Source of the DNA: a virus
Direction: 5' to 3' (one strand)
DNA: 25,315 nucleotides
Virus record (IMG/VR): IMGVR_UViG_3300034062_001613
Coordinates: 1 to 25,315 of that record
A program made the translations under genes and the position numbers. Position 1 is the stretch's first letter, and each line of letters begins with the position of its first letter. The notes beneath the pieces are model-generated. The model was not told the DNA's origin. It was given only the letters and a program-made list of their open reading frames with translations, and made no database searches. Below, piece after piece: positions 2,909 to 19,627 of the stretch.

Positions 2909-3098
2909 CAAATTCCTTTCGTAGTTGGGTTAAGTCACGGCGCACCGCAGCCGATTCCTCAAGGTATTTAAGTATCCCTTCTTGCAATATCCTGTTCGAC
3001 TCTTGCAGCGCGAGTATGTAATGCGCTGCCTCGGTTTGCTCTTGATGGGACATAAGATACCCATGCTGAAGGTTGCGTAGTATTTTGTCAGGTGTCAT
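2898..3098 (-). CDS. Small coiled-coil hypothetical protein
   Basis: 66 residues, beginning MTPDKILRNLQHGYLMSH, then two helices rich in Glu, Gln and Leu (LQESNRILQEGILKYLEESAAVRRDLTQLRKEF). The start overlaps the winged-helix gene stop (ATGA). The N-terminus TPDKILRNLQHGYL echoes TPDKIIAFCTKPHT at the start of the upstream gene; this may be chance. Function unknown; a coiled-coil partner of its neighbour is possible. Confidence 0.66.
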   Translation of the reverse strand: MTPDKILRNLQHGYLMSHQEQTEAAHYILALQESNRILQEGILKYLEESAAVRRDLTQLRKEFDET

Positions 3099-3340
3099 GG
3101 CTGTAATCCAAAAGGGTTATGGGCGTGTTTAATAACTAAGTTTTCAAAATGCTCAACGACTGTAGGCGTGGACACTATGTAAGTAGCAGGCTCGGTATCA
3201 ACGCGCTTGACTAGCCCTTTCATCTGTAGGCGCCCCAACGCGCTGTAGATGCTGCTGCGCTGTATCTTGCAATGATCGGAAATCTCTTGCGCCGTATGCG
3301 GCTTAGTACAAAAAGCAATTATCTTGTCGGGTGTTCTCAT
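3095..3340 (-). CDS. Winged helix-turn-helix DNA-binding protein
   Basis: 81 residues. The pattern is that of a compact winged helix: KIIAFCTKPHTAQEISDHCKI (helices 1-2), RSSIYSALGRLQMKGLVKR (recognition helix), then the wing VDTEPATYIVST. This resembles MarR/TrmB-type domains (helix, AQEIS, xxxxIYxALxRLxxKGLVxR). It probably binds DNA and could regulate phage promoters, for example the divergent promoter at 5140-5210, but the target is not shown by the sequence. It overlaps both neighbours by ATGA and so is co-expressed with the helicase. Confidence 0.78.
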   Translation of the reverse strand: MRTPDKIIAFCTKPHTAQEISDHCKIQRSSIYSALGRLQMKGLVKRVDTEPATYIVSTPTVVEHFENLVIKHAHNPFGLQP

Positions 3341-13850: not shown

Positions 13851-14435
13851 TTACATGTACGAACGATTAAAACCGGCGTAGGGCGACTCATGGCCGGCCC
13901 GCATAGGCATAATGACGACTAAGCACTCATTGGTGCCCGCGTGCATCACGGCGCTATCAGAACCGCGCTGAATAAAGTTGAATGTATCTTTTGGCTTAAC
14001 GCCGAGATAGAGCGACAGAGCCGCGCGGCCGCGCACCAATAAATCAGGGTTGTAGGTGCCTGGCGTTTGTTCGGTGCTCGAGTCGATCGACGGTATAACG
14101 CGGCCAATATCAGGGTACTTACCATCGACGGGCACAAAGCGCGCGCCACCAAGTAGATAATTTTGGCCGTCGAACTCGAGATCTGTAAACTCTAATTTTT
14201 TGTCCAGGCGCTTAACGGCGTCAATGGGGATAATGAGATTGAGCGTTGGTGGGCAATAGTCGCCCTCATAAGGCAATTGGCCGGCAAACAAAATATGACC
14301 ATCTGTGCCGTAAACCATACCAACGGCGTTTTTGGTAATTTGGATATTGATACCCTGCAAGTAATACCGAATATCTTTTTTGGCCGCGCACTCAAGCGCA
14401 GCAAATAGGGGCGATGTTTTAAAAGTGATTTTCAT
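13851..14435 (-). CDS. Short beta-sliding-clamp (DnaN-like) protein
   Basis: 194 residues. It shows scattered but specific DnaN features: YYLQGINIQ (residues about 24-32), GTDGHILFA (43-51, compare ATDGHRLA in DnaN), GKYPDIGRVIP (about 104-114, compare FPDYRRVLP), and VVIMPMR (about 173-179), which matches the MPMRL terminus of DnaN but is followed by 15 extra residues. Bacterial clamps have about 370 residues in three domains, so this is a compact form. It probably tethers the phage polymerase or sequesters host clamp partners. It sits in the leftward operon with the shared CTAAGGT leader before its ATG. Confidence 0.8.
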   Translation of the reverse strand: MKITFKTSPLFAALECAAKKDIRYYLQGINIQITKNAVGMVYGTDGHILFAGQLPYEGDYCPPTLNLIIPIDAVKRLDKKLEFTDLEFDGQNYLLGGARFVPVDGKYPDIGRVIPSIDSSTEQTPGTYNPDLLVRGRAALSLYLGVKPKDTFNFIQRGSDSAVMHAGTNECLVVIMPMRAGHESPYAGFNRSYM

Positions 14436-14577: not shown

Positions 14578-14943
14578 TTAGTCCATTCTGCTATCAACGT
14601 ACGCGTCAACGCCGTTTGCAATTAACACCTCAGCAAATGCGCGCGCGTACACTTCTTTGCGCGTTAACGATTGATTGAAATCGCGCACACTAATGCAATA
14701 GCCACCGCCGTAATTTTTACGGCCGATGTTCATCTTTTTAAGGCCATTGGCGAACTTTATATTTTTAACAACAACGCTAGCAAAGCCACAAACGCCGTCG
14801 GCAACAAAGTAAGAGCGCGTTATCTCGCTATTAGCATCAAGCGGGTTTTTATGCGCGTTGACGATCATTGGTGCTACTTGCGCGGCTTGCGCGGCCAATA
14901 ATCCTGCTGCGCGCGCTTGAGTGTAGAGTTCTGCTATGTTCAT
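14578..14943 (-). CDS. Conserved-type phage hypothetical protein (VADGVCGFA ... RMD)
   Basis: 121 residues. Central motif: YFVADGVCGFASVVVKNIKFANGLKK; then YGGGYCISVRDFNQSLTRKEVYARAFAEVLIANGVDAYVDSRMD. I recognise this second block (VxDFNQSxxxKExYAxAFAxVLxxxGIxAYxxSRMD) from small phage proteins of unknown function. The first 35 residues are an alanine-rich helix (ARAAGLLAAQAAQVA). It is the promoter-proximal gene of the leftward clamp operon, with the leader TTTAAGGTAAACGAAA, and lies beside the large control region. Confidence 0.75.
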   Translation of the reverse strand: MNIAELYTQARAAGLLAAQAAQVAPMIVNAHKNPLDANSEITRSYFVADGVCGFASVVVKNIKFANGLKKMNIGRKNYGGGYCISVRDFNQSLTRKEVYARAFAEVLIANGVDAYVDSRMD

Positions 14944-14978
14944 TTTCGTTTACCTTAAAGTTTAGGGGTTTGATTTAC

Positions 14979-14993
14979 TACACTTGCAGTGTA
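14979..14993. promoter_or_regulatory. Operator-like dyad upstream of the leftward operon
   Basis: TACACT-TGC-AGTGTA is a perfect 6+6 inverted repeat around a three-base centre. It lies 36 bases upstream of the ATG at 14943, where a repressor could block the leftward promoter. No cognate regulator is identified; the winged-helix protein at 3095-3340 is one candidate. Confidence 0.4.
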
Positions 14994-15182
14994 CAGGAAT
15001 TTCTAGCATTGTAGTTAAATAATAGTCCACTATGTGACATTGTGTAGGCAATTAAGGGTAGTCGAAAGGTAACGCGAAAACGCGCAAAGTGCTTTCAGAA
15101 AATGCCTTATAAATTATTGGCTTATATGCTTTGTAGGGTAATAAAGGTAATAGTAATAGTTAGTAAAGATATTTTTATAAAA

Positions 15183-15202
15183 TACTGTATATATGTACAG
15201 CT
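15183..15202. promoter_or_regulatory. LexA-binding site (SOS box)
   Basis: TACTGTATATATGTACAGCT contains CTGT-N8-ACAG with an alternating AT centre. It matches the E. coli consensus TACTG(TA)5CAGTA at 17 of 20 positions. It is flanked by extra inverted arms ATAAAATA (15177-15184) and TATTTTAT (15204-15211). Host LexA would be expected to bind here and repress the nearest promoter(s) until DNA damage. It lies 240 bases before the leftward operon and 440 before TerS. Confidence 0.72.
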
Positions 15203-15284
15203 ATATTTTATGTCGGAGCGCAAACGCGCACACGTTAATGCGCTGCTCACTTTTTGCACATAGGCCAGCGTCGACTTTTTGGGC

Positions 15285-15302
15285 ATTGCCTACATTGCCT
15301 AC
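15285..15302 (+). repeat. ATTGCCTAC repeats (tandem pair; further copies at 15630 and inverted at 15044)
   Basis: ATTGCCTAC occurs at 15285-15293 and 15294-15302 in tandem, again at 15630-15638 just before the TerS ATG, and in reverse at 15044-15052. The second and third copies extend to the identical 16-mer ATTGCCTACATGACCT (15294-15309, 15630-15645). Confidence 0.65.
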
Positions 15303-15324
15303 ATGACCTTCAAGGTAAACTTAG

Positions 15325-15367
15325 TGGCTAAGACTTAGTGAGCTTTAATGGCTAAGACTTAGTGAGC
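15325..15367. repeat. Tandem repeat with CTAAG-A-CTTAG dyads
   Basis: TGGCTAAGACTTAGTGAGC occurs exactly at 15325-15343 and 15349-15367 (period 24). Each copy contains the dyad CTAAG-A-CTTAG, and another half-site CTTAG (15320-15324) stands just upstream. It looks like an iteron or a multi-site operator. Confidence 0.6.
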
Positions 15368-15380
15368 CTTGCTCGGTGGC

Positions 15381-15517
15381 CGGCCGCCAGCCGGTAGCAC
15401 TTGGCCCGCGTTGTGCCGGCCGAGCCCGCCGGCCGCCAGGTGTTAACCGAGCTCGAGCTCGGCCGCCAGCCGGTAGCATTTGGCCCGCCGGCTAGCCGGC
15501 CGAGCTCGACGGCCACC
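15381..15517. repeat. GC-rich imperfect direct repeat rich in palindromes
   Basis: Two copies of a unit of about 57 bases (15381-15437 and 15460-15517, period 79) share a 29-base start that differs at one base. Perfect palindromes include GGCCGGCC (15378-15385), GAGCTCGAGCTC (15449-15460), GCCGGCTAGCCGGC (15487-15500) and CGAGCTCG (15501-15508). The GC content is far above that of the flanks. Confidence 0.7.
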
Positions 15518-15553
15518 GGCTAGGGGCCTGTCGGCATGTTGCAGTGCAGCATA

Positions 15554-15571
15554 GGGGTAGGGGGGGGAGGG
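15554..15571 (+). other. G-quadruplex-capable G-run
   Basis: G4-TA-G8-A-G3 supplies four runs of at least three G on the plus strand, enough for an intramolecular quadruplex. It follows the palindromic block and precedes the TerS -10 element by about 50 bases. Confidence 0.45.
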
Positions 15572-15621
15572 CCCTGCGAGGAGCCCTAGCTAGCGAAGGT
15601 TATGCCACCAAAATTTTTTTA

Positions 15622-15627
15622 TATAAT
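15622..15627 (+). promoter_or_regulatory. -10 element of the packaging operon
   Basis: A perfect TATAAT follows a T7 run and lies 11 bases before the ATG at 15639. No -35 match is seen at the right distance, so a phage activator or modified polymerase may be needed. The predicted leader would be about 5 bases. Confidence 0.45.
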
Positions 15628-15638
15628 AAATTGCCTAC

Positions 15639-16160
15639 ATGACCTACAATCGCAAAATGTTATCTCTACACTTCACACCCCGCGAAGTCCGCGCCACCGA
15701 GTCGCGTTTGTTGCGCGTCTACGAAGCCGCAAAGTTAGGCTTGTCTAATGACGCACTTGCGCTGCGCGCTGGCATGATGCCTGAGGAGTTTCGTAAACTC
15801 TGCCAGCTAGACCCAGTTGTCGAGTTAGCGGCAATGCAGGGTCGAGCCGAAGCCGAGGCCACTATGTCGCAAGTCGTGTATGACGCAGCCGTGGGCGGCG
15901 ACGCCAAGATGGCGCTAGAGTTCTTGCGACACAAACATGATTGGGTCGCCAAGCAGCAAGTGCAAGTCGATGTCACGCAACAGATCAGCATCATCACAGC
16001 ACTCGAGCAAGCCAACCAAAGAGTAGCAAATGGGCTTACAATTGACGAAGCCGATTATCGCGTCAACGATAACCGGCTTCTTATCAACAACCGTGAAAAG
16101 GACGGCGATGACTACCAAGATATTAACTCAAGACCGGCTCAAAGAGCTACTTCAGTATGA
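15639..16160 (+). CDS. Terminase small subunit-like DNA-packaging protein
   Basis: 173 residues. The N-terminal half looks like a helix-turn-helix DNA-binding domain: VYEAAKLGLSNDALALRAGMMPEEFRKLCQLDPVVELAAMQGRAEAEATM. It continues YDAAVGGDAKMALEFLRHKHDWVAKQQVQVDVTQQISII, which matches the terminase small-subunit pattern (GDxxAxxFxLxxxxxWxxxxxVxV). The role is recognition of the packaging site and activation of the large subunit. The ATG has no Shine-Dalgarno; ATG 15657 (residue 7) is an alternative. It sits next to the repeat block and overlaps an HNH gene by 53 bases. Confidence 0.8.
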   Translation: MTYNRKMLSLHFTPREVRATESRLLRVYEAAKLGLSNDALALRAGMMPEEFRKLCQLDPVVELAAMQGRAEAEATMSQVVYDAAVGGDAKMALEFLRHKHDWVAKQQVQVDVTQQISIITALEQANQRVANGLTIDEADYRVNDNRLLINNREKDGDDYQDINSRPAQRATSV

Positions 16161-16635
16161 CGCCGACACAGGCATCTTTACTTGGTTAAACCCAACTAGC
16201 AATAGAATACGACGTGGCAGCATTTGTAACTGCCACGACAAGCACGGCTACATAGTCATACGCATTGATCGCCGGTTATATAAATCGCATCAACTGGCGT
16301 GGTTGTATACCCATGGCGCGTTTGCTAAAGAACTAGACCACATAAACCAAACCCGCAATGACAACCGATTGGTTAACTTGCGCGTGGCCACCCGCGCCGA
16401 GCAGATGCACAATGCCGGTATGTTAAAGAATAATACGTCCGGCGCTAAAGGCGTATCCTGGCACAAAGCAGCTAAGAAATGGCACGCACGACTGTGGGTT
16501 GACGGAAAATGCCAATCGCTAGGGTATTTTGATACTATAGAATCTGCACAAAAGGAACGCGATGCAAACCACTCGTTACTCAGCCGCCGAAGAAATGGCT
16601 CTAATGAGCCGCCTTTGGTCGCCTCAGATAGCTAA
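16108..16635 (+). CDS. HNH homing endonuclease with C-terminal AP2-like DNA-binding domain
   Basis: 175 residues from ATG 16108, which has AAAAGGACGGCG upstream; the frame opens earlier at 16030, but that part lies inside TerS. It starts MTTKILTQDRLKELLQYDAD. The HNH_3 core is KELDHINQTRNDNRLVNLRVATRAEQMHN. An AP2-like domain follows: NTSGAKGVSWHKAAKKWHARLWVDGKCQSLGYFDTIESAQ. These free-standing endonucleases cut DNA to spread themselves between related phages. It overlaps TerS (53 bases) and TerL (74 bases), so it was wedged in without breaking either gene. It may be selfish or may help packaging. Confidence 0.9.
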   Translation: MTTKILTQDRLKELLQYDADTGIFTWLNPTSNRIRRGSICNCHDKHGYIVIRIDRRLYKSHQLAWLYTHGAFAKELDHINQTRNDNRLVNLRVATRAEQMHNAGMLKNNTSGAKGVSWHKAAKKWHARLWVDGKCQSLGYFDTIESAQKERDANHSLLSRRRNGSNEPPLVASDS

Positions 16636-18543: not shown

Positions 18544-18800
18544 TGGCTAAGAAATCCGTGTCGTTATCTGTAGGGCGAGGCGAGAAGCTATCTGTCAAAG
18601 AGGGCGCAGGGCTAACTGCCAAAGGGCGTGAGAAATACAACGCCGCTACAGGCAGCAACTTAAAAGCACCCGCCCCCAATCCTAAGACCGAAGCAGATAA
18701 AGGGCGCAAGGCGTCCTTTTGTGCTAGAATGAAACCTATCGCAGAAAAATCTGAGGAAGGTAGCCGTGCTAAAGCATCAATGCGTCGATGGAAATGTTGA
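18540..18800 (+). CDS. Small basic phage protein (GAGLTAKGRxKYNxATGS family)
   Basis: 86 residues from ATG 18540, overlapping the upstream TGA. It carries SVGRGEKLSVKEGAGLTAKGREKYNAATGSNLKAPAPNP, then KGRKASFCARMKPI and an end KASMRRWKC. I recognise this set (GLTAKGRxKYNxATGS, SFCARM, RWKC) from a widespread phage family of unknown function near packaging genes (possibly DUF6321; the accession is not certain). It is strongly basic, so DNA binding is plausible. The next HNH gene begins one base after its stop. Confidence 0.75.
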   Translation: MMAKKSVSLSVGRGEKLSVKEGAGLTAKGREKYNAATGSNLKAPAPNPKTEADKGRKASFCARMKPIAEKSEEGSRAKASMRRWKC

Positions 18801-18801
18801 A

Positions 18802-19230
18802 ATGTGGGCTGACATTAAAGGTTACGAGGGTCGATACCAAGTAAGCACTTTAGGTCAAATTAAATCTCTTGCCCGTATGCGCCGTGGTAAAAGTGGGTGT
18901 CAAGTTCCTGTGCCTGAGATAATTATGGCATTAACACCTAAAAAAGATAACGGACGAACCAAACCTTATGTTGAAGTTCGTTTTAGAAATGGTGGTTTAC
19001 GCACCGAACGTTGTAAATCGTTTTTGGTTCATCGTCTTGTTGCTGCCGCATTTATTAAACCGTTAGAAAAAGGCGAACAAGTTGATCATATTAACGGCGT
19101 TCATGCTGACAATCGTGTAGAAAATTTAAGAGTAATGCACTACACTGAACACGCTAAGCTACACCCAACTGTGTTAAACCCTCTTTTGCATGACCCTATA
19201 ACTGGCAATTTTTTATCTAGAGAACGTTAA
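18802..19230 (+). CDS. NUMOD4-HNH homing endonuclease
   Basis: 142 residues from ATG 18802. A GTG at 18766 with a strong AGGAAGG site upstream is an alternative that would overlap the previous gene. The N-terminus MWADIKGYEGRYQVSTLGQIKSL is a NUMOD4 motif (W-x-x-I-x-GYEG-x-YQVS-x-x-G). The HNH_3 core is KGEQVDHINGVHADNRVENLRVMHYTEHAKLH. It is a second free-standing homing endonuclease, between two small virion-region genes. Its codon use is AT-richer than its neighbours (many AAA, TTA, GTT), a sign of transfer. Confidence 0.88.
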   Translation: MWADIKGYEGRYQVSTLGQIKSLARMRRGKSGCQVPVPEIIMALTPKKDNGRTKPYVEVRFRNGGLRTERCKSFLVHRLVAAAFIKPLEKGEQVDHINGVHADNRVENLRVMHYTEHAKLHPTVLNPLLHDPITGNFLSRER

Positions 19231-19232
19231 TC

Positions 19233-19385
19233 ATGGCTACTAAACCAGGACTCTACGCAAATATTCACGCAAAACGCGAGCGCATTAAAGAAGGCTCGGG
19301 CGAGAAGATGAACAAGGTCGGTAGCAAAAATGCGCCGACCGCCAAAGATTTCAAACAATCAGCCAAAACTGCAAAGAAGAAATGA
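19233..19385 (+). CDS. 50-residue basic phage protein (KPGLYANIHAKRxRIKxGSGEKM family)
   Basis: ATG 19233 is 3 bases after the HNH stop, and TGA 19383-19385 overlaps the next ATG. It begins MATKPGLYANIHAKRERIKE and continues GSGEKMNKVGSKNAPTAKDFKQSAKTAKKK. This sequence pattern is one I have seen repeatedly in small phage proteins beside portal genes. It is very basic with a lysine tail, so DNA or capsid binding is plausible. Function is not established. Confidence 0.78.
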   Translation: MATKPGLYANIHAKRERIKEGSGEKMNKVGSKNAPTAKDFKQSAKTAKKK

Positions 19386-19627
19386 TCAGACCATTAAACG
19401 ACAATATTGCGGTACGCCCTGACCCGTTTGTGCAAAGCGGGTTGCTAATCCTACCCGAAACAGATACCCAAACGGGAGTGGTGGTAGCGGTCGGCCCAGG
19501 CAAAAAAGACTCAAAACGGCCCTTAATGGTCGCCGTAGGTGATCACGTCATGTACAGCGGTACAATTGACCGCAAGTATGAAGACTTGATCCTGATGAAG
19601 GATAAGGACGTAATCGGACTTGTATGA
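19382..19627 (+). CDS. GroES-like co-chaperonin (Cpn10)
   Basis: 81 residues: MIRPLNDNIAVRPDPFVQSGLLILPETDTQTGVVVAVGPGKKD, then RPLMVAVGDHVMYSGTIDRKYEDLILMKDKDVIGLV. This covers the Cpn10 fold end to end: RPL-x-D-x-I-x-V, SGL-x-LP as the mobile-loop region, G-x-V-x-A-VGPGK, VGD-x-V, and LI-x-x-D-DVIG. Usual GroES is about 95 residues, so it is slightly short in the roof and loop. It probably docks with host GroEL to fold capsid or portal proteins, as T4 gp31 does. It lies just before the portal, joined by ATGA. Confidence 0.88.
   Translation: MIRPLNDNIAVRPDPFVQSGLLILPETDTQTGVVVAVGPGKKDSKRPLMVAVGDHVMYSGTIDRKYEDLILMKDKDVIGLV

Follow-up and report, generated by a model that had tools for sequence, protein, structure and literature searches.

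Direct control of phage promoters by host LexA is known mainly from temperate phages. In phage 186, the tum gene is LexA-controlled. In Bacillus phage GIL01 (Tectiviridae), the lysogenic promoter P1 is repressed by host LexA together with gp7 (PMC4551915), and in the Gifsy/Fels-2 group antirepressor genes are under LexA control (PMC3121763). Host regulators are also used by phages thought to be virulent, with CtrA sites in Caulobacter-type phages and Spo0A sites in phi29 described under the term 'lytic deferment' (PMC9437464). Here, we describe a 25,315-nucleotide stretch of viral DNA (IMG/VR record IMGVR_UViG_3300034062_001613, positions 1 to 25,315; hereafter the window) that contains a predicted operator of the LexA/SOS-box type, TACTGTATATATGTACAGCT (15183–15202, no strand assigned), recognized by its consensus match, its matrix score and its retention in relatives. 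We consider it reasonably probable that this box serves as an operator for host LexA at a leftward early promoter and that the SOS response would release the corresponding operon. As in GIL01, host LexA is proposed to act directly on an SOS box of a phage promoter, with no need for a CI-type repressor; GIL01, however, is temperate and has a Gram-positive host, a different LexA motif, several boxes and the co-factor gp7, whereas the window phage is a podovirus with one box, no lysogeny genes found and no known co-factor. If a gp7-like LexA co-factor exists here, the small uncharacterized proteins encoded in the leftward operon are no more than candidates for it. As in the Gifsy/Fels-2 group and in 186, coupling of phage genes to SOS would depend on a single proteobacterial LexA box at a phage operon, but in those phages LexA controls the antirepressor of a prophage repressor, and no HTH_3 or S24 repressor or integrase was found in the searched relatives of the window phage. 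The phages with CtrA or Spo0A sites are likewise apparently non-integrating and have co-opted a host regulator for lytic timing; in contrast, they follow a cell-cycle or sporulation signal through another regulator and not DNA damage.

The window encodes a large terminase, a P22-like portal, a family A DNA polymerase, a DUF5906 helicase-primase and an SNF2 helicase, a gene set that marks a P22-like podovirus. Judged by this gene content, the window covers part of the genome of such a phage, a member of a large freshwater group; at least 600 IMG/VR stretches match the terminase patterns, a complete circular relative measures 38.4 kb with a 123-base end repeat, and other kin measure 36–38 kb. 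The nearest named genomes by TerL are Caudoviricetes sp. ctNMl277 (MW202483, 77%) and Phage DSL-LC05 (OR003940, 67%), which share with the window the P22-like layout and a repeat-rich control region before terS but, unlike the window, have no LexA box and contain other repeats (TTTACATAAAC, GACCCACTGGGT). A GroES-like (Cpn10) co-chaperonin gene (19382–19627) precedes the portal gene, as it does at the same place in DSL-LC05. HNH endonuclease genes are located at the terS/terL junction (16030–16635) and downstream (18766–19230), the set including two HNH_3 matches, one with NUMOD4, and one AP2 match. A 92.9-kb record (L007/G004, IMGVR_UViG_3300042472_000301), the first 38 kb of which correspond to this phage group and the remainder to a more distant phage, is probably a chimeric assembly and was left out of the gene counts.

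On the ORF map, the box falls within a non-coding control region of 695 bp (14944–15638, no strand) between a leftward operon and terS, in agreement with the sequence-only reading, which had placed it in the sole large intergenic region. The first rightward gene, 437 bp from the box, is the terminase small subunit gene terS (15639–16160, + strand), identified by its position before terL and by homology to the annotated terS in the DSL-LC05 arrangement. In the opposite direction, 240 bp separate the box from the nearest start codon, a distance that counts against a direct role at the operon. The start codon is that of the first gene of the leftward operon (14578–14943, − strand), which codes for a 121-residue protein with a weak PHROG 22149 match only and is proposed to be under the control of the box. 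The same operon encodes a predicted DNA sliding-clamp (DnaN-like) protein (13851–14435, − strand; AlphaFold pLDDT 80.6, Foldseek to the E. coli beta clamp with E 2.9e-8). With 194 residues, this product is about half a DnaN. PHROG 3007 and several GenBank records label it a RusA-like Holliday junction resolvase; the label looks wrong, the predicted fold being that of a beta sliding clamp.

The 20-mer at 15183–15202 matches the E. coli SOS consensus TACTGTATATATATACAGTA at 17 of 20 positions (three mismatches), in agreement with the sequence-only reading of a near-consensus SOS box, and 0 of 100 shuffles contained a site as close. The accompanying claim of rarity by chance holds for this full match and not for the bare CTGT-N8-ACAG core (CTGTATATATGTACAG, 15185–15200), which is not rare and was present in 26 of 100 shuffles. 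With its CTGT-N8-ACAG dyad, A/T-rich core and low deviation from the consensus, the box has the features of a proteobacterial SOS box. A LexA matrix, scoring with which had been proposed earlier, was built from 65 host-type sites in lexA/recA promoters of Burkholderiales, preselected for CTG...CAG; it gives the box 23.0 bits (host-site median 21.2, 10th percentile 15.6) and the second-best site in the window 8.0 bits, and the score of the box was reached in none of 200 whole-window shuffles and none of 5000 local-region shuffles. A chance match in an AT-rich region, which would gain from the bare 16-bp pattern being expected 0.35 times per window, has next to no probability and is already refuted by conservation, the site being found repeatedly at a single position within a large family. 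The part of the earlier description that fails concerns the flanking arms said to enlarge the site, ATAAAATA (15177–15184) and TATTTTAT (15204–15211): their distances to the dyad centre differ (12 and 15 bp), which puts them out of register, and relatives do not conserve them.

Comparison with related phages, also proposed at the outset, places the site at one fixed position in part of the group. Sites of at least 20 bits occur in 20 of 102 distinct control regions, all of them 370–540 bp upstream of terS, and 10 of the 11 clamp-gene relatives retain CTGTAYRTATATACAG or CTGTATATATATACAG at the same place. Across 21 genomes (719 kb), the only sites of at least 20 bits are those in eight control regions, one per region, and of 94 control stretches of equal length none contains a site of even 15 bits. 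A blind scan of all IMG/VR for the exact 18-mer, in which relatives were not picked by score, identified 69 contigs, 21 of which belong to this podovirus family and extend down to 67% TerL identity; in all 19 family hits with terS in view, the box is located at −372 to −634 from terS and in identical orientation. The other 48 contigs with the exact 18-bp SOS box lie outside the podovirus family, in many unrelated contexts (IMG/VR scan, L330–L398). Among nine flank-distinct box-positive regions, the box core shows 87% pairwise identity and the flanks are near random (0.44 versus 0.40 and 0.27 versus 0.26), a comparison with supporting weight only since the set was chosen by the box. These findings support the view that the box is a family feature and appears to be kept under selection in part of the podovirus group. 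They also make it very unlikely that the box is a relic or passenger, functional in a temperate ancestor and neutral now: absence or breakage of the box in many relatives and the lack of other lysogeny genes among those searched for would be in keeping with such an origin, but the core is conserved while its flanks are at random identity, and the site is always single, at the same place and in the same orientation.

The box is absent in most relatives (about 80%). One group has TACTATATAGCTAYACAGTA, a version of the box in which CTAT replaces CTGT in one half-site, and a natural broken variant reads TACTATATAGCTACACAGTA. In other close kin a different palindrome is found at the place of the box, namely TTAAGTATTACTTTA in L018, L021, L022 and L026, CTATATATATATATATAG in L005 and a paired TGTATACA in the kin of L115, suggesting that LexA at this position is dispensable for the phage. 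Among the box-negative control regions, those of L121, L047, L120, L018, L021, L026, L049 and L133 contain perfect palindromes unlike the box (TGTATACA-N5-TGTATACA, TTAAGTATTACTTTA, TGTAAAAGATTCTTTTACA, TATATAAGTAATAGCTTATATA). On the TerL tree the box is scattered, with at least nine changes forced by the starred branches and 16 in all, a result equalled by 78 of 500 label shuffles; hence, control regions seem to have been exchanged, and TerL is a poor guide to the box. The strong palindromes at the same place in close kin, together with perfect 8-bp palindrome arms in 16 of 81 box-negative regions where 2.2 are expected, would also suit a phage-encoded regulator with drifting specificity, whose operator in this lineage resembles a LexA box by coincidence. 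We think this unlikely. A small TrmB-like winged-helix protein encoded at 3095–3340 (− strand) could be such a regulator, but its gene is present in only 5 of 21 family genomes, three of which are box-negative, and no gene confined to box-positive genomes was found. HTH_3 repressors, detected along with S24 in the positive controls, were found in 0 of 25 records and S24 proteins in 0 of 30, leaving no phage repressor gene of either kind in these records on which CI-type immunity could be based. The exact LexA consensus, with fixed CTG/CAG, a variable centre and unrelated flanks, would moreover be hard to obtain otherwise.

Genes for stable lysogeny of the GIL01 type, by integrase or plasmid partition, were sought in 30 relative records, which gave no match to Phage_integrase and none to ParA-type (CbiA) proteins, the two families that the search covered. 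Plasmid records yielded distant matches only, below 60% identity. Signs of a prophage state were not seen, with no integrase, ParA-type, S24 or HTH_3 proteins found in the searched relatives. This result, together with the lack of any gene that tracks the box, makes a host factor more likely than a phage repressor.

Repeat searches showed that the box is flanked by short repeats. To its left, the 9-bp repeat TGTAGGCAA (15043–15051, − strand) is inverted with respect to the right-hand copies, which form an iteron-like tandem, TTGCCTACA-TTGCCTACA (15286–15303, + strand), followed by two copies (15328 and 15352) of a second repeat type, CTAAGACTTAGTGAG (15328–15366, + strand), with extra copies in relatives. 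Other 9-bp units (GGGTCATTT, GTGGACAAT) take the place of TTGCCTACA in relatives, and the 9-bp arrays TGTAGGCAAT, TTGGGTCAT and TGTGGACAAT beside the box vary independently of it. A tie between the box and one repeat type was rejected, as the box persists while the adjacent repeats change type. The inverted 9-bp arrays (15043–15366 in the window, and in relatives) bracket the AT-rich box region, and their unit varies among close kin, like that of a fast-evolving iteron origin. Direct repeats beside an AT-rich stretch, a feature of iteron-type origins, are present in the control region, and the dyad could mainly be part of a replication origin, as an AT-rich unwinding element between inverted iteron arrays, with LexA having a minor role (e.g. 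gating transcription through the origin) or none. A replication gene product with a weak RepB-primase-like domain and a DUF5906 helicase domain would be in line with this idea, which we nevertheless regard as quite improbable: CTG...CAG ends are unnecessary for an unwinding element, the box is kept across differing iteron types, and cumulative GC skew, although uninformative as an origin test, gives no origin signal at the control region. Further to the right, GC-rich repeats (CGGCCGCCAGCCGGTAGC) and a G-rich run (GGGGTAGGGGGGGGAGGGCCC) lie just before terS (15380–15600), the G-rich run being found also in L007 and in a looser version in L060; they are possibly a packaging signal.

On its left side, the box adjoins a −10-like hexamer, TATTTT (15179–15184, − strand), which is TATATT in most relatives. 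In the 20 box-positive regions, the leftward hexamer matches TATAAT at a mean of 4.45 of 6 positions, compared with a background of 1.93 and 2.75 for the rightward counterpart; the window's own hexamer matches at 4 of 6. The −35 element is poor in most members (mean 2.25 of 6), including the window (1 of 6), and a generic promoter scan found sites no more numerous than in shuffles. In two relatives, TTGCCA stands just ahead of the box, which then forms the spacer of a TTGCCA-16 bp-TATATT arrangement. The E. coli recA promoter has the same layout, its LexA box filling the spacer between −35 and −10. The left half-site, ACTGTATA, varies less than the right one, and less than a symmetric LexA dimer would require, which points to an overlapping element and fits an overlapping promoter element.

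In GTDB, TerL relatives at 72–79% identity are found on short contigs, and the MAGs into which these are binned are beta- and gammaproteobacterial only (Rhodoferax, Burkholderiales, Methylococcaceae and others); no GTDB-binned terminase relative is linked to a chromosome; these bins of close kin are only suggestive of a beta- or gammaproteobacterial host. The lexA promoters of such MAGs and of the Rhodoferax family contain CTG-N10-CAG boxes, usually two and 19 bp apart. Most recA promoters of the sampled Burkholderiales show no box within the stretch read, and the host matrix therefore rests mainly on lexA promoters. LexA of the candidate host groups thus appears to share the motif of the window box, with the phage's own host only tentatively assigned through the bins. 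The earlier proposal that host LexA acts on a phage promoter retains its main elements, namely a LexA-type site apparently kept by selection, the motif of the candidate hosts and an abutting −10-like hexamer, and loses the flanking arms. The host LexA motif, conservation in relatives and a nearby promoter, on any of which that proposal could have foundered, were each examined, and none clearly spoke against it.

Based on these features, we hypothesize that the box occupies the spacer of a leftward promoter, with the −35 region on one side and the −10 element on the other, as in recA, about 225 bp ahead of the leftward early operon. As long as the cell is undamaged, LexA would sit on the box and hold down this operon with the sliding clamp and the small proteins, and during the SOS response RecA-driven cleavage of LexA would release it, such that the DNA-damage state of the host could be read without a phage-encoded repressor. 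That relatives keep, break or replace the box suggests that the host damage alarm is used to time phage genes. A more far-reaching and doubtful version is that host LexA is the sole gate on the early operon and that a phage entering an undamaged cell is kept for a short time in an unintegrated state, from which sunlight or other DNA damage releases it (SOS-gated lytic deferment), with relatives disabling the gate by single half-site changes or swapping operators. Near-identical phages whose operator is intact, half-broken or replaced offer a natural comparison by which the idea can be tested. If true, what would be new is a single LexA operator in a podovirus group without a repressor, its intact, broken and replaced forms all occurring in nature; in an abundant freshwater group with no sign of lysogeny, phages thought to be lytic would then sense host DNA damage, a daily event in sunlit lakes.
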